A stretch of DNA of 64,000 nucleotides, taken from the NCBI GenBank assembly GCA_014898415.1, contig RCTD01000003.1, forward strand, positions 1,674,001-1,738,000, read 5' to 3'. Each line of letters opens with the position of its first letter. The first letter of the stretch is position 1. Origin of the DNA: Stromatinia cepivora. Lineage: Eukaryota > Ascomycota > Leotiomycetes > Helotiales > Sclerotiniaceae. The notes beneath the pieces are model-generated. The model was not told the DNA's origin. It was given only the letters and a program-made list of their open reading frames with translations, and ran no database searches. This document shows, in pieces, positions 20,599 to 32,916 of this stretch. A program made the position numbers and the translations under genes.

Positions 20599-23561
20599 AT
20601 GTTGGCAACAAGACAGGTTCTCGCTGCTGCGAAGCGGCGAGCAATTACCGGCATGAGCATTCGCACAATGGCCACTGTTGGTGATTCCCCGCTTGATAAA
20701 CAAGTTAGACAAAATATCCACGAAAAGAACAACTTCATCAACTACAAGAAGATGTCCGAGAACCTCTCAATTGTTCGTCAAAGATTAAACCGACCTTTGG
20801 CATATGCTGAAAAGATTCTCTACTCACATTTGGATGATCCTCATGGTCAAGAGATTGAACGTGGTGTATCATACCTTAAGCTTCGACCCGACAGAGTAGC
20901 TTGTCAAGATGCTACTGCTCAAATGGCTATTTTGCAATTCATGTCAGCTGGCATGCCTTCTGTCGCAAACCCTACCACCGTTCACTGTGATCATTTGATT
21001 GAGGCACAAGTTGGAGGTGCGAAGGATCTTACTCGGGCTATTGATATCAACAAGGAGGTCTACGATTTCCTCTCTACTTCTTGCGCAAAATACAATATTG
21101 GTTTCTGGAAGCCAGGTTCCGGTATCATTCATCAAATTATCCTTGAGAACTACGCTTTCCCAGGTGGTCTACTCATTGGTACTGATTCGCATACACCCAA
21201 TGCCGGTGGTCTCGGTATGGCCGCTATTGGTGTCGGTGGAGCTGATGCTGTCGATGTTATGGCCAACCTTCCTTGGGAGTTGAAGGCACCAAAGGTTATC
21301 GGTGTCAGGCTCACTGGTGAACTCTCTGGCTGGGTTACTCCAAAGGATATTATCCTCAAGGTTGCTGGTATCTTGACTGTTAAGGGTGGAACTGGTGCTA
21401 TTGTTGAATACTTCGGTCCTGGAACGAACTCAATAAGCTGTACAGGAATGGCAACTATATGCAACATGGGTTTGTACTTTTCAATTTTATATTTGTTTTC
21501 TTGTCCTAACTTTTTTATAGGTGCCGAAATTGGTGCAACAACCTCTCTCTTCCCATTCAACGACCGCATGTACGATTACCTGGCTGCTACTAAACGTACC
21601 GAGATTGGAGACTTTGCTCGCACATACGCCAAGGAACTCAGAGAGGATGAGGGTGCACAATACGATGAGTTGATTGAGATTAACCTTTCTGAGCTCGAAC
21701 CACACATCAACGGACCATTTACTCCAGATCTTGCCACTCCTATCTCCAAGTTCAGTGAGGCCGTTAAGGCTAACAACTGGCCTGAGGAATTGAAGGTTGG
21801 ACTTATTGGTTCTTGCACAAACTCTTCATATGAGGATATGACTCGTGCTGCTTCTATCGCTCGTGATGCCATGGATCATGGTATCAAGGCAAAGTCTCTC
21901 TTCACTGTTACTCCAGGTTCCGAACAAATTCGTGCTACTATCGAGCGTGATGGTCAATTGGAAACTTTTGAACAATTCGGTGGCATGGTACTGTAAGAAT
22001 TCCCCCAACTTTCTTCCTTTCCACAAGCTTCATCGTCCTATTTTACTACACCCCCAATGTCCAAGTTTATTTGGATGTCATCTTTACTAAAACCTCTCTA
22101 GTGCTAATGCTTGTGGGCCTTGTATCGGTTAGTACCCCTTTAATTTTCTCCCCCCTTTGCTACCCCTCAAAAGTGCCCTTTTAATTGCCAAGAATACTTG
22201 AGACATTGAAACCTTTTCAATTGTCAACAGTACTTGAGGCATTGAATCCTTTTCAATTGTCAACAGTACTTGAGGCATTGAATCCTTTTCAATTGTCAAC
22301 AGTACTTGAGGCATTGAATCCTTTTCAATTGTCAACAGTACTTGAGGCATTGAAGCCTTTTCAATTGTCGACAATAGTTGGGACATTGAAATGCTCTTTT
22401 GGGGGAAGTGATATCTTGCTTCCACTTCAAGGCGTCTTGATTGTTCACCACAATTTGGACATTGGAATACCCCACCACGTCTCCTCCATTCATTTCATGA
22501 ATTTTTACTGACCTTTTAAAAGGACAATGGGATCGTAAAGATGTTAAGAAGGGAGAAGCCAATTCGATAATCTCATCCTACAACCGTAACTTCACTGGAC
22601 GTAACGATGCCAACCCTGCTACTCACTCTTTTGTCGCATCACCAGATATGGTAGTCGCTATGACCATTGCTGGATCCCTCCACTTCAACCCTCTCACTGA
22701 TACCCTGAAGGATAAGGATGGAAAGGAATTCAAGTTGTCTCCACCTACCGGTGATGGATTGCCATCAAGAGGATATGACCCAGGACAAGACACTTACCAA
22801 GCACCACCTGCTGAGCGTGCTTCGGTCAATGTTGCTGTCTCACCAACCAGTGATCGTCTTCAACTTCTTGAGCCATTTAAGCCATGGGATGGAAAAGATG
22901 CTTTGGACATGCCTATCTTAATCAAGGCCAAGGGAAAGACCACTACCGATCATATCTCCATGGCTGGTCCATGGCTCAAGTACCGTGGACATTTGGACAA
23001 CATCTCCAACAACATGTTGATCGGTGCCATTAACAGCGCAAACGGTGAGGCCAACAAGGTCAAGAACTTCACCACTGGTGAATTTGATGCCGTTCCAGCT
23101 ACCGCCAGAGATTACAAGAAGAAGGGTCTCCCATGGGTTGTCATTGGTGACTGGAACTACGGTGAAGGAAGTTCAAGAGAACACGCTGCTCTTGAGCCAA
23201 GACATCTTGGAGGTCTTGCCATCATCACCAAGTCTTTCGCTCGTATTCACGAGACCAACTTGAAGAAGCAAGGGATGCTTCCTTTGACTTTCATTAACCC
23301 AGAGGACTATGAAAAGATCGATCCATATGACAAGGTATGAAACTCCAGCAATTATCCTTCCAAAGCAAAGCTAATCATTTTGACCTCTAGGTTGACCTTA
23401 TGTGCACTGAGCTCGCCGTTGGTAAGCCAATGACTCTCAGAGTTCACCCCAAGTCCGGCGAGTCATTCGACATCAAGCTCGCTCACACTTTCAACGCCCC
23501 ACAAATTGAATGGTTCAAGAATGGAAGCGCTTTGAACACAATGGCAAAAATGAATGCATAA
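20599..23561 (+). CDS. ACO1: Mitochondrial aconitate hydratase (aconitase)
   Basis: Converts citrate to isocitrate in the TCA cycle in the mitochondrial matrix. Five exons: 20599-21469, 21521-21992, 22102-22127, 22523-23334 and 23391-23561, giving 783 residues, the usual length. The start is chosen because it gives a good presequence ([20 protein letters not shown]) before the mature DSPLDKQV. Visible family blocks are [55 protein letters not shown] and [20 protein letters not shown]. The three [4Fe-4S] cysteines lie in SCTNS and in CGPC; the latter two are encoded by a 26-nt micro-exon. Intron 1 (51 nt) has no in-frame stop. The third intron (395 nt) contains a 36-bp minisatellite. Highly confident. 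Confidence 0.95.
22179..22393. repeat. 36-bp minisatellite inside the third aconitase intron
   Basis: Six head-to-tail copies starting at about 22179, 22214, 22250, 22286, 22322 and 22358. The four inner copies (22214-22357) are nearly identical, while the first (35 bp) and last copies are diverged. Each unit contains CAATTGTCAACAGTACTTGA. Because 36 is divisible by three, the array is open in frames of both strands and produces false repetitive ORFs. It lies wholly between the micro-exon and exon 4. Confidence 0.9.
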
Positions 23562-26782: not shown

Positions 26783-26802
26783 CTCACTCGTAGGCTGCGC
26801 AA

Positions 26803-26935
26803 CGGGTACCCGCGGGGCGGATAATGGCCTTGACAGATAATCCGTGGGTACCCATTGGGCGGGGCGGGTAATTCAAAATCTGGATGGGTAACCCACGGGT
26901 TATCTGCAGATAATCTGTAAATAATCCGCAGACGC
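26803..26935. repeat. Left subterminal repeat array of the element
   Basis: A cluster of GGGTACCC, GGGTAACCC, GGCGGGTAAT and GATAATC motifs in direct and inverted order, with the palindrome TTATCTGCAGATAA at 26900-26913. The composition is clearly more GC-rich than the neighbouring DNA. Confidence 0.75.
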
Positions 26936-27079
26936 TTGATAAGATTATAAGTGCGGGGTGCTCCACTATACTAATCTTTATACTAATCGCTTTACTTATT
27001 TAAGTTGGATCATGCAAAACAGATTGAACAAAAGGTTAATTATGTCTTTATTGCTTATTATTACATATCTGAATATAGA

Positions 27080-27598
27080 TTACAACTCCCCTCCAACGTA
27101 GGAGTAACCTATCATCATTTTCCGTAAGCGGCGCACAAGCACCATATCCTTCGCTTGAATAGTTACTCGTTTTGCGTGGATAGCGCACAAGTTTGTCACT
27201 AATAATTATTAGCTTTCCATCAATAAGTAAGTATAAAAGCCTACTTTCAAACTCAGTTACTATAGTAGACTCTGCAGCCTCTTGTAAAGCCTCTAAGGCT
27301 GAGCTCTGAATTCGAAAGGAGCCGTGATCGTGCATGATTTCTTTTACCAATCGACGGAATGGTAATTTCGGTATAAAAAGTTCTGTCGATTTTTGATACC
27401 GACGAATTTCTCGAAGTGCAACAGCTATACGCGTTTTAGAGTCTTATACTAATCATTATACTAATCATTTAACTTACTACCAGGTTTAAATCTCCATTTC
27501 TTTTTGTTTGCACTGCGAACACGTGATTTTTTAGTTCGTGACCGCGTTTTCGCACCACTCAAAGCAGCCCGGATAGCACCTCGCTTTAAAGGAGGCAT
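27080..27598 (-). CDS. Histone H3-like protein carried by the mobile element
   Basis: Three exons on the minus strand, 27598-27478, 27424-27245 and 27198-27080, with introns of 53 and 46 nt, encode 139 residues. After splicing the core reads as histone H3: [59 protein letters not shown] and [10 protein letters not shown]. Compared with canonical H3, the tail (residues 1-39, [17 protein letters not shown] and on) shares no ARTKQTARKS or other modified-lysine context, loop 1 is about one residue shorter, and the end is extended. The exact restoration of the H3 frame by both introns shows the gene is under coding constraint or recently active. It is not a clear centromeric H3, because those usually have a longer loop 1. 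It likely enters nucleosomes, but function is inferred. Confidence 0.9.
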
Positions 27599-27901
27599 AT
27601 CGCACTTCGCTAAGGGGTTAGTAGCTATTTAAAAATAAATCAGAGTAATTCAGCTTACTAATATCGATTGTAGTGTAAATAGCTTAGGAATATTGAAAGA
27701 AGAATAGGCTGAAATGTGGATATAACGAATCAGAGATTAAAAAAAAGCAACATTTAAGCGGGGATTGAACCCTCACCCTAGAAGTAAGCGAACATGCATT
27801 TAACGCCTCCCCACTTTCAAAAACTTTAATTTATTTCAAGCCTTTTAAACCCCTACCATTAAATTCAATCTTCATACTAATCTTTATACTAATAATTCAA
27901 T

Positions 27902-29025
27902 ATGCCTCCCAAGCGTAAAGCTTCTACTGAATTATCTAATAACCCTCACACCACTAAAGCTCGAAATCGATTAAATAATCGAAATGAATTTGAGATTCAA
28001 ATCGAAAAAGCTAAAGCGAGCGATCAAGCAGCAATCACTTATCGATTGAATACTATTCGTCGATCAAGTGAGTGGATCCAAGCGAGTGAGCTCGAGCGAG
28101 CTAATATAAAAGAACGGGTCAAAAATGAAGTGATCCACAAGCGGTGAGCTAGAATGAGCTCACTCTTTCCCTATTGATACTAATTTTGATCTTATTAGGA
28201 AGGTGACAGGTGTTCATGCATCAATTATTGCACAAAGACTAGGCTATGGAGATGAGGGAGGTCAATTTGCGCAAGCTTACGATGGTAATGATAATTTTGA
28301 AGATTGTGAAGAAGACGACGAGGCTCTTCAAGAGCGAATGTGGAGAGACGACGATGAGTGTAATGGAGAAAGGTTTATTGATCTTGAAGGAGATAAAGAA
28401 GAGCAAAAGCAAGAGCTTTTTGTTCATGGTATTAAGGTATATTGATTCTTATGATTTTTACTTTTTTACTACTAATTTACTATTTAGAAGCACCGAAATC
28501 TTGAGTTTCGTCTCTGGCAAAAAGCTTGGAAGCGGGTAATGAAAAGCTTTCAGAGAAAGTGTAATAAATTAAATCTGAAAGGGGTTGATTACTTAATCTC
28601 CTTAGGGCCTTATATCGATCGTAAGACTAGGTAAATTAATCTTCTTTTATACTAATCTTTATACTAATCATTAATCATTGTATAGTAAATATTATGAGAT
28701 CATCCCACCTCATAAATTCTTTACCTCTTATGAATTGATGCTATGGCGAAATCTCCGTGTGACTCTCAACGCTGGGTGTGAAGAGGGGGATCCAGATTGG
28801 GTACAGTTACCAGGCCCTAATGAGTGGTATGTAGAGAGCTACAACCTTGAAAAATATGGATTTTATGATCCACCAGAGAAAGACAAGGAGTTATATGAAG
28901 GTATATTGCTTCTGTTGATGCATTCTGAAGATTCTATTCCTCAAGATTATCAACGTGTCAATTTTGCATGTAAAGAGTTTCGTTTGATGACTAGCACAGA
29001 GCTACTCTTCAAATTTAATGTATAA
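27902..29025 (+). CDS. Element-borne protein of unknown family, acidic middle
   Basis: Four exons, 27902-28143, 28199-28436, 28488-28630 and 28686-29025, join in phase with canonical GT-AG introns and CTAAT branch sites to an intact 320-residue protein. I do not recognise its family. The N-terminus is basic (MPPKRKAS) with a helical charged region (SSEWIQASELERANIKERV). The middle, about residues 107-155, is strongly acidic (ENDED-like runs such as EDCEEDDEALQERMW and DDDECNGERF). The C-terminal half is mixed, with aromatic-rich parts (PGPNEWYVESYNLEKYGFYD). It is transcribed away from the H3-like gene with ~300 bp between the two starts. An acidic protein beside a histone gene suggests a chaperone or loader, but that is speculation. 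It does not resemble a transposase. Confidence 0.75.
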
Positions 29026-29059
29026 ATAGCTTGCTAATATCAATATCAATATAAAATAT

Positions 29060-29249
29060 CATAAAAGAGTTACAGATAATCTGCAAATAATCCGCGGATA
29101 TATGGATTATCTGCAGATAATCCGCGGATTATCCGTACGGGGCGGGTAATTTTGAAGCCTTGATGGATAATCCGCAGGGCGGGTAGGACCTCTGATGGGT
29201 AACCCACGGAGCGGATTATCCGCGGATTACCCATGGGTACAGATAATTT
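29060..29249. repeat. Right subterminal repeat array of the element
   Basis: Dense GATAATCCGCGG-like and GGGTAACCC-like repeats in both orientations with two overlapping perfect palindromes, GGATTATCTGCAGATAATCC at 29104-29123 and GATAATCCGCGGATTATC at 29116-29133. It mirrors the left array. Confidence 0.8.
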
Positions 29250-29269
29250 TTGCGCAGCCTACTCACTCG

Positions 29270-31875: not shown

Positions 31876-32916
31876 ATGGCAATTACATTACCACAATTCG
31901 GCGCAACCCGGCTAAGATCATACATCCTTCGTTTACCTTTATTCACAAGATGTATAGTAGCGGTCATATTCATATTATGGCTCGTCAGTTTGCAATCAGC
32001 TTGGGATTTACAGAAATGGGGGGGTTTGTACCCAAATGAGATTGGGTTGCAGTCAAGTAAATCTATCATTTCAATACAATATTCGAGTTATTCTTACGGA
32101 TCATTAAGCTAATATGGCATTATTATAGTGTATCGCACGAATACTTTCCCATTGATACATATGGGTTTCATACACATGATAATGAATACCATTGCTTTAA
32201 CTCCATTGTTGGAGAGATTTGAGGCGGAGTATGGGACTTTGACTACATTGGCATTATTTATGGGCCGTAGGTTTCTCTTGGAGAGGATGGCATAAGGAAG
32301 GTAGAGCTAACGGTTGTTATAGCTTTGTCGACGATTCCTGCATTAATATATACATTCGTGGAAAGGGGGATCTTCCATATGAATACAGGAGTGATGGGTG
32401 CTAGGTGGGAGAATTATACTTCATCTGCTCACAAAGTTTTGCTAACAAAGACTTTAGTATTTGGGTTTTCACTCTACTTGCAATGGAAGCGATCAAGACA
32501 TATAAAACAAACCCAAATTTCGTATTGGGTACAGTTCAAATTCCAACATGGACAACACCAATTATTCTTACACTATTCATCTCCTTCTTGGTACCACATA
32601 CCAGCTTCCTTGGTCACCTTTGCGGACTTGTTTTTGGTTATGGATGTTAGTGCCCCTTTTATGCTATGGTTCGGACCGCTAACTAACTTTTATAGGGGGC
32701 CTGGGTTATCTCAAATTCTTAGCTCCACCAGAGAAGATTCTAAGATGGATTGAAGGCAAAATGAATCTTCTGGGTAGATTACCACACTACGTTTCCGTTG
32801 ACCAAAAAACCGTTGGAAGATATGGATTATTACCCACCACTAATAATCCAATCATCTCATCTGACACAAACATTGCGCTAGGATTTCCTGGCCAGCCACA
32901 GCGATTGGGACCCTAA
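31876..32916 (+). CDS. RBD2: Rhomboid intramembrane protease Rbd2
   Basis: Golgi rhomboid of the RBD2 type. Five exons, 31876-32056, 32129-32266, 32323-32404, 32458-32645 and 32696-32916, give 269 residues. Several hydrophobic segments are visible, starting with LFTRCIVAVIFILWLVSLQ. The HMGFIHMIMNTIAL block after exon 2 is the family's His/Asn region; the nucleophile Ser is in GVMGASIWVF and the catalytic His in FLGHLCGLVFGYGWG. The C-terminal tail (ALGFPGQPQRLGP) is polar and short. The Ser codon is split by intron 3, so the correct acceptor is the TTTAG before 32458. Phases agree throughout. Confidence 0.9.

Follow-up and report, generated by a model that had tools for sequence, protein, structure and literature searches.

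The 64-kb stretch of the Stromatinia cepivora genome analysed here (contig RCTD01000003.1, positions 1,674,001 to 1,738,000; hereafter the window) contains a 2,471-bp unit, at 26791-29261, which is very probably a non-autonomous, internally deleted derivative of a three-gene hAT transposon. This assignment follows from longer copies elsewhere in the genome, which hold a damaged transposase together with both genes of the window copy, a histone H3 variant (H3L) and a second gene (ORF2). On the whole we favour the view that both serve the element lineage as functional genes and are not passively captured cargo, since they appear to have been under purifying selection between element subfamilies.

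The borders of the unit were confirmed to the base. Its exact 12-bp inverted ends (TAGGCTGCGCAA; 26791-26802 on the plus strand, 29250-29261 on the minus strand) are flanked by identical 8-bp target-site duplications (CTCACTCG; 26783-26790 and 29262-29269), and with up to one mismatch allowed these two ends are the sole matches to TAGGCTGCGCAA in the window (shuffled expectation 0.17, with two matches reached in 2 of 100 shuffles). Inside the ends lie mirrored subterminal repeat arrays, the left one of GGATAATCCGC-like units at 26803-26932 and the right one at 29072-29249, with inverted-repeat pairs connecting 26833-26932 to 29098-29229. Genome-wide (55.7 Mb) the 12-mer end occurs at 197 exact places, 97 forward and 100 reverse, and a control 12-mer with its letters reversed at none forward and one reverse. 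These counts, the shuffles and the locus-specific duplications led us to reject chance repeats as the source of the inverted ends and duplication.

Searching the genome with the whole unit gave at least 88 matches (40 of 181 candidates scored), and the H3L-ORF2 module recurs at nine further loci (C19, C5, C2, C11, C24, C9, C1, C23 and C4). Eight of these sit between identical 8-bp duplications that differ from one locus to another: TGCATTTC at L031, ATTACAAC at L032 with L033, CATATATA at L035 with L036, GGGAGGGA at L037, GCTAAATC at L038, CCAGCCGA at L039, GCCAGGTA at L046 with L040 and CCTCCAAT at L041, up to two mismatches being allowed per end. Insertion of hAT elements makes 8-bp duplications, and a duplication of this length at the window copy and eight of the nine loci is here combined with short, exact 12-bp inverted repeats. 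L042, which lacks the H3L-ORF2 module, has a duplication with one mismatch, and at L043 two positions differ. Short elements of 551 and 858-956 bp have the same ends and their own duplications; the 551-bp ones form a non-autonomous family in its own right (e.g. L016, L018, L027 and L037 7123-7673), each again with its own 8-bp duplication. Over unit positions 1-127 the identity to other H3L loci reaches 96%, and over positions 1-109 the identity to one 551-bp element is 100%. Because the flanks of the window copy are single-copy, this genome offers no empty site, and a search of it with the joined flanks returned just the two flanks. The first-pass annotation had described the ends, duplication and mirrored arrays, all of which were found, and had read from them a hAT-type element, which the ends, the duplications and the transposase of the longer copies bear out. 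It had also proposed a search for copies with different duplications, now seen at eight of nine loci, and had named as the outcome against it a fixed single copy with ends occurring nowhere else; what emerged was many copies and 197 end places.

The longer copies reveal what the window copy has lost. Their order is end, H3L (minus strand), ORF2 (plus), hAT transposase (plus), end, and the two without large inserts, L037 (5,528 bp) and L034 (5,637 bp), give a clean length of about 5.5-5.6 kb; the other seven H3L-ORF2 loci span 7.5-16 kb with further sequence inserted. C-terminal pieces of the transposase match PF05699 (Dimer_Tnp_hAT) with E=3.6e-9 in L038 and E=5.8e-7 in L031. This dimerisation domain is absent from the window copy and present in the longer, stop-damaged copies: among the 17 matches listed in the genome, eight lie within eight of the nine loci, all with stops, and 16 of the 17 overall contain stops. 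The sole stop-free match, at C27:566216-566410, possibly belongs to an intact, different hAT. A 157-residue middle piece of the transposase, which we took to resemble the hAT core, where catalytic DDE residues in an RNase-H fold would be expected, had no hAT match in Pfam; the copies are damaged by repeat-induced point mutation (RIP). A genome search with this piece gave 18 matches, of which the only stop-free one was the piece itself, and no undamaged copy of this transposase was seen in this assembly. Relative to L034 the window copy lacks about 3 kb (about 2796-5769 of L034), including the transposase part, the sequence 3' of ORF2 being joined to the right end at a junction at 29034-29061. 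With its own transposase gone, the window copy would, with high likelihood, have moved in trans using transposase from a sister copy. The earlier description of a histone gene in place of a transposase thus holds for the deleted window copy and fails for the longer copies, which carry transposase remains as well as H3L and ORF2; the full-length relatives with a hAT transposase that it suggested seeking do exist, in damaged form. Nested in the longer copies are inserts of ~1.5-2 kb with 150-bp direct terminal repeats (L031 2372-2521 and 4174-4323; L038 5285-5434 and 6811-6960), probably retroelements.

To quantify RIP the nine copies were compared with the window copy as reference over unit positions 200-2250 (2,020-2,050 aligned bases each). 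C>T/G>A changes account for 2,893 of the substitutions, reverse transitions for 12 and transversions for 10, with 1-31 gap positions in each copy; non-RIP substitutions number zero to five per copy, and L031, L032 and L038 have no reverse transition or transversion at all over 2,038-2,050 bases. As the differences are almost wholly C>T/G>A, the window copy has nearly the sequence that the parent had before RIP, and the copies look to have spread in a recent burst. The GC content of the module falls from 0.37 to 0.15-0.26 in the RIPed copies, all nine of which have stops (2-5 in H3L, 6-17 in ORF2) and most of which have lost a start codon, and five older copies have 6-10 stops in H3L and 20-28 in ORF2. 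Among the ten loci of its subfamily the window copy is the sole one that is stop-free for both genes. By context, the pooled changed/total counts are 885/1,908 for CpA, 483/1,147 for CpC, 478/1,202 for CpG and 1,047/2,464 for CpT; the CpA preference is thus weak (46% changed vs 40-43% in the other three contexts), unlike classical CpA-biased RIP (for background on RIP see PMC8959702 and PMC12543289).

RIP-type mutation struck the nine longer copies, the genes of the window copy are intact, and this escape calls for an explanation. We think it fairly probable that the window copy is simply a late arrival, inserted since the most recent sexual cycle or brought in by crossing or transfer from another strain, with H3L irrelevant to its survival. 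RIP is described as acting in the sexual cycle (PMC6710886), and the zero to five non-RIP substitutions per copy fit a recent burst; we have no direct counter-point to late arrival, which concerns the survival of the window copy only and is compatible with a function of the two genes in the element lineage. A second explanation, which we regard as very unlikely, is that the locus has been domesticated, the host now using H3L and ORF2 as a chromatin gene pair after loss of the transposase. Such an origin would suit a copy that alone among the ten is stop-free in both genes and is missing only the transposase part, but relative to it three of the nine copies have no substitution other than RIP-type ones over the bases aligned, which makes the window copy young.

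RIP yields transitions only, and we therefore tested selection on transversions alone, as the ratio of nonsynonymous to synonymous transversions per opportunity (N/S). Inside the young burst the test was uninformative, with only three unique transversions per gene. The genome also holds an older subfamily with the same H3L-ORF2 pair (C5, C25, C11 and C12, a transposase piece following at C5 and C12), and comparison of the window copy with its members L049-L052 put N/S at 0.30-0.35 in ORF2 (p 1.4e-7 to 1.7e-9) and at 0.46-0.54 in H3L (p 0.005-0.021), the histone core of H3L alone giving 0.38-0.45 (p 0.009-0.024). As controls, reading the sense strand one or two bases out of frame gave 0.82-2.5, and antisense frames gave 0.60-4.4 overall. 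Against a fifth old and further diverged H3L copy, L053 (C15:206500-208800), the H3L ratio was 0.52 (p 0.008), with 0.79 and 1.62 in the shifted frames. At the level of sequence, these ratios indicate purifying selection on both genes between element subfamilies, strong for ORF2 and modest for H3L, and suggest that H3L and ORF2 were both maintained as working genes during the divergence of the element lineages.

A number of observations weigh against this reading and against the transposon assignment that underlies it. The H3L signal is modest because two of the three H3L antisense frames give 0.62-0.81, near the true H3L frame, and one ORF2 antisense frame gives 0.60-0.77. The H3L tail alone gives 0.36-0.71 (p 0.03-0.36), L049-L052 are related to one another, so that the tests are not independent, and ORF2 of L053 did not align meaningfully (ratio 0.97). 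L034, which together with L037 makes up the full-length copies free of large inserts, lacks a matching 8-bp duplication. Finally, H3L has been damaged by RIP, with stops, in all 14 other copies examined, and the histone therefore did not protect those copies from RIP. This last finding is also what would be expected if a hAT had caught an H3 gene by chance and neither H3L nor ORF2 were of any use to the element, as the published Pseudocercospora and, by drift, Pyrenophora cases have been read. We nevertheless hold such passive transduplication to be rather unlikely, as purifying selection on both genes argues against passive cargo: transversion N/S is below 1 for both, and out-of-frame sense readings lie close to 1 or higher, albeit with antisense frames less clear-cut. 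Nor does it readily account for a common C-terminal signature in eight H3L proteins of one clade, or for the H3L-ORF2 pair being present in four species and three genera.

Beyond S. cepivora, neighbouring locus tags place a relative of H3L next to a relative of ORF2 in three species: Botryotinia calthae (BOTCAL_0234g00160/00150), Botrytis aclada (EAE96_001783/001784) and Monilinia laxa (EYC80_006414/006413). With S. cepivora these make four species, which we count as three genera. The B. calthae ORF2 model runs on into the N-terminal part of the transposase (E 5e-12 against L034, 4e-15 against L038, 3e-11 against L031; no match of the extension to L049), and since it continues in this way the same gene order probably exists in B. 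calthae. The fusion itself (P0122, BOTCAL_0234g00150) is probably an annotation join. A profile search with ORF2 found three proteins only, from Botrytis, Botryotinia and Monilinia, among 4,485 candidates. The H3L signature E-F-[EY]-[ML]-T-N-L with a C-terminal extension is carried by eight of the 120 H3-like matches listed (7,989 scored), from Stromatinia, Botryotinia, Botrytis, Monilinia, Bisporella, Tricladium, Clarireedia and Rutstroemia, genera which we take to belong to Helotiales. In a tree of 27 rows of our choosing (25 of the 120 listed matches, the host H3 and the host CenH3 candidate) the eight H3L proteins form one clade (100/97) apart from the 19 other rows, including host H3 and the CenH3 candidate, although several branches are long, which may have pulled Clarireedia and Rutstroemia towards each other.

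H3L itself is an intact minus-strand gene of three exons and two introns encoding 139 residues: exon 1 (27478-27598) holds the ATG and the N-terminal tail, exon 2 (27245-27424) most of the histone fold, and exon 3 (27080-27198) the C-terminal part ending ...GYSYVGGEL and the stop, with introns at 27425-27477 and 27199-27244. The spliced model equals the public S. cepivora protein P0001 (EAF04_001721; 100% identity over 100%). It matches Pfam Histone (PF00125) with E=1e-17, a value measured with an earlier, wrongly spliced model, and among PDB sequences H3L matches histone H3 best (E=2.2e-35). The core equals host H3 at 63 of 88 positions and keeps H113, C110, D123, R83, K115 and R116, with R63 changed to P, R72 to K and D106 to M, and K79 not kept; loop 1 falls short of that of host H3 by one residue. 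The AlphaFold model is weak (mean predicted local distance difference test score, pLDDT, 60). In the tail, whose alignment is unsure, the canonical ARTKQTARKS...ARKS arrangement is missing and no ARKS motif is present. H3L is accordingly not a canonical H3 gene, lacking the ARKS tail and falling in a clade separate from host H3; nor is it a CenH3, as CenH3/CENP-A has a longer loop 1 where that of H3L is shorter, and the host CenH3 candidate, on a long branch, lies outside the H3L clade. Capture together with the introns of host H3 was likewise rejected, as the positions do not coincide: the H3L introns interrupt the T codon of KPGT and the M codon of FEM, and those of the host H3 gene, as we read it, follow AR and HR.

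On the plus strand, ORF2 has four exons (27902-28143; 28199-28436, which has an acidic stretch; 28488-28630; and 28686-29025 with the stop) and three introns, and encodes 320 residues, also intact. The claim of two intron-containing genes free of frame damage, one of them an H3 variant, is therefore upheld. Against Pfam, ORF2 gave DUF6557 and one other family, both below cut-off (E about 0.1), and a PDB search with the alignment of ORF2 gave no match; its relative P0121, modelled alone with AlphaFold, had a mean pLDDT of 40. H3L and ORF2 are divergent across a 303-bp spacer (27599-27901). A tRNA-like stretch in this spacer was rejected as a candidate, ARAGORN finding no gene and Rfam no match there; the right subterminal array has two sub-threshold Rfam matches.

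The purifying selection is consistent with some function, which may or may not be the one in chromatin that the first-pass annotation suggested, where the histone would mark or open chromatin at the element's own loci or help it to avoid silencing. H3K9 and H3K27 lie within ARKS motifs, and because H3L has none its tail should not be a normal substrate for silencing marks at these residues. In one possible scheme H3L would pair with host H4, and the resulting nucleosomes, at the element or beyond it, would lack a normal H3 tail and blunt silencing via H3K9/K27 methylation; ORF2 would serve as partner or loading factor. We offer this scheme tentatively and with low confidence. A broader proposal, to which we attach equally guarded credence, is that the variant H3 may be an old, selected, standard component of a Helotiales hAT lineage, perhaps shared with Dothideomycete elements, which would supply the transposon with its own nucleosome subunit, a tail unmarkable by host silencing enzymes, and a dedicated partner in ORF2.

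The kind of element is already known. The first-pass annotation knew of no described fungal transposon with a histone gene, a statement contradicted by reports from 2013 (PMC3538342) and 2019 (PMC6710886). In Pyrenophora tritici-repentis, Manning et al. 2013 describe a 5.6-kb hAT with H3L, a central ORF and a transposase in 10 copies, a non-autonomous short form of 2.3 kb in 16 copies, and an H3L that groups neither with canonical H3 nor with CenH3 (PMC3538342). The S. cepivora element is alike in having transposase, central ORF and H3L between its ends at about 5.6 kb (L037, L034), and in having a short form, here of 2,471 bp. However, in the Pyrenophora short form the central ORF is described as fused in frame to the transposase, with the dimerisation domain retained, whereas the S. 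cepivora short form has a complete ORF2 and has lost the transposase part; and the Pyrenophora copies are reported as nearly identical with little sign of RIP, whereas the nine longer copies here are RIPed. The ORF2 profile search of 4,485 candidates found no Pyrenophora relative, and the central ORFs are likened by layout, not by descent. Dhillon et al. 2019 report H3-carrying hATs in six Mycosphaerellaceae with copies inactivated by RIP, treating the Pyrenophora case as independent (PMC6710886). The hATs of Pseudocercospora, Cercospora and Sphaerulina share with ours the 8-bp duplications, H3-like sequence and RIP-inactivated copies, but the P. fijiensis element is about 9.5 kb, and these elements are described as having ends of 18-20 bp and intronless H3-like copies, none intact within elements (PMC6710886). 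In S. cepivora, by contrast, the ends are 12 bp, H3L contains introns, one copy is intact and a second gene is conserved. Repeat R25 of Stagonospora nodorum is RIPed, weakly resembles DNA transposons and matches H3 once RIP has been reversed in silico; the available account gives weak matches only and describes no element structure (PMC3017866). No report of such an element in Leotiomycetes was found in the results of searches of the open-licence PMC literature.

As a transposon the element is ordinary and of a kind already known, yet it is a well-preserved new member of that kind. New here are the Sclerotiniaceae member itself, the H3L-ORF2 pair in three further species, the eight-protein H3L clade and the transversion-only selection test. 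Histone capture by fungal hATs has been published as transduplication, and the Pyrenophora-like three-gene layout now appears in another fungal class. The signs of selection together with one intact copy make it testable whether a transposon's own histone enters host chromatin and counters silencing.

Around the unit, the nearest ORFs listed end at 23,340 on one side and begin at 32,325 on the other; between them no ORF of at least 130 residues is listed, introns not being considered. The ORF ending at 23,340 is presumably aconitase-like. A double motif, TACTAATC..TATACTAAT, occurs four times in the window (26969, 27447, 27875 and 28650), always on the plus strand and always inside the element: near the left end, across H3L intron 1 (antisense), directly 5' of ORF2 and in ORF2 intron 3. 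Likewise, 11 of the 18 plus-strand TACTAAT occurrences in the window fall inside the element.
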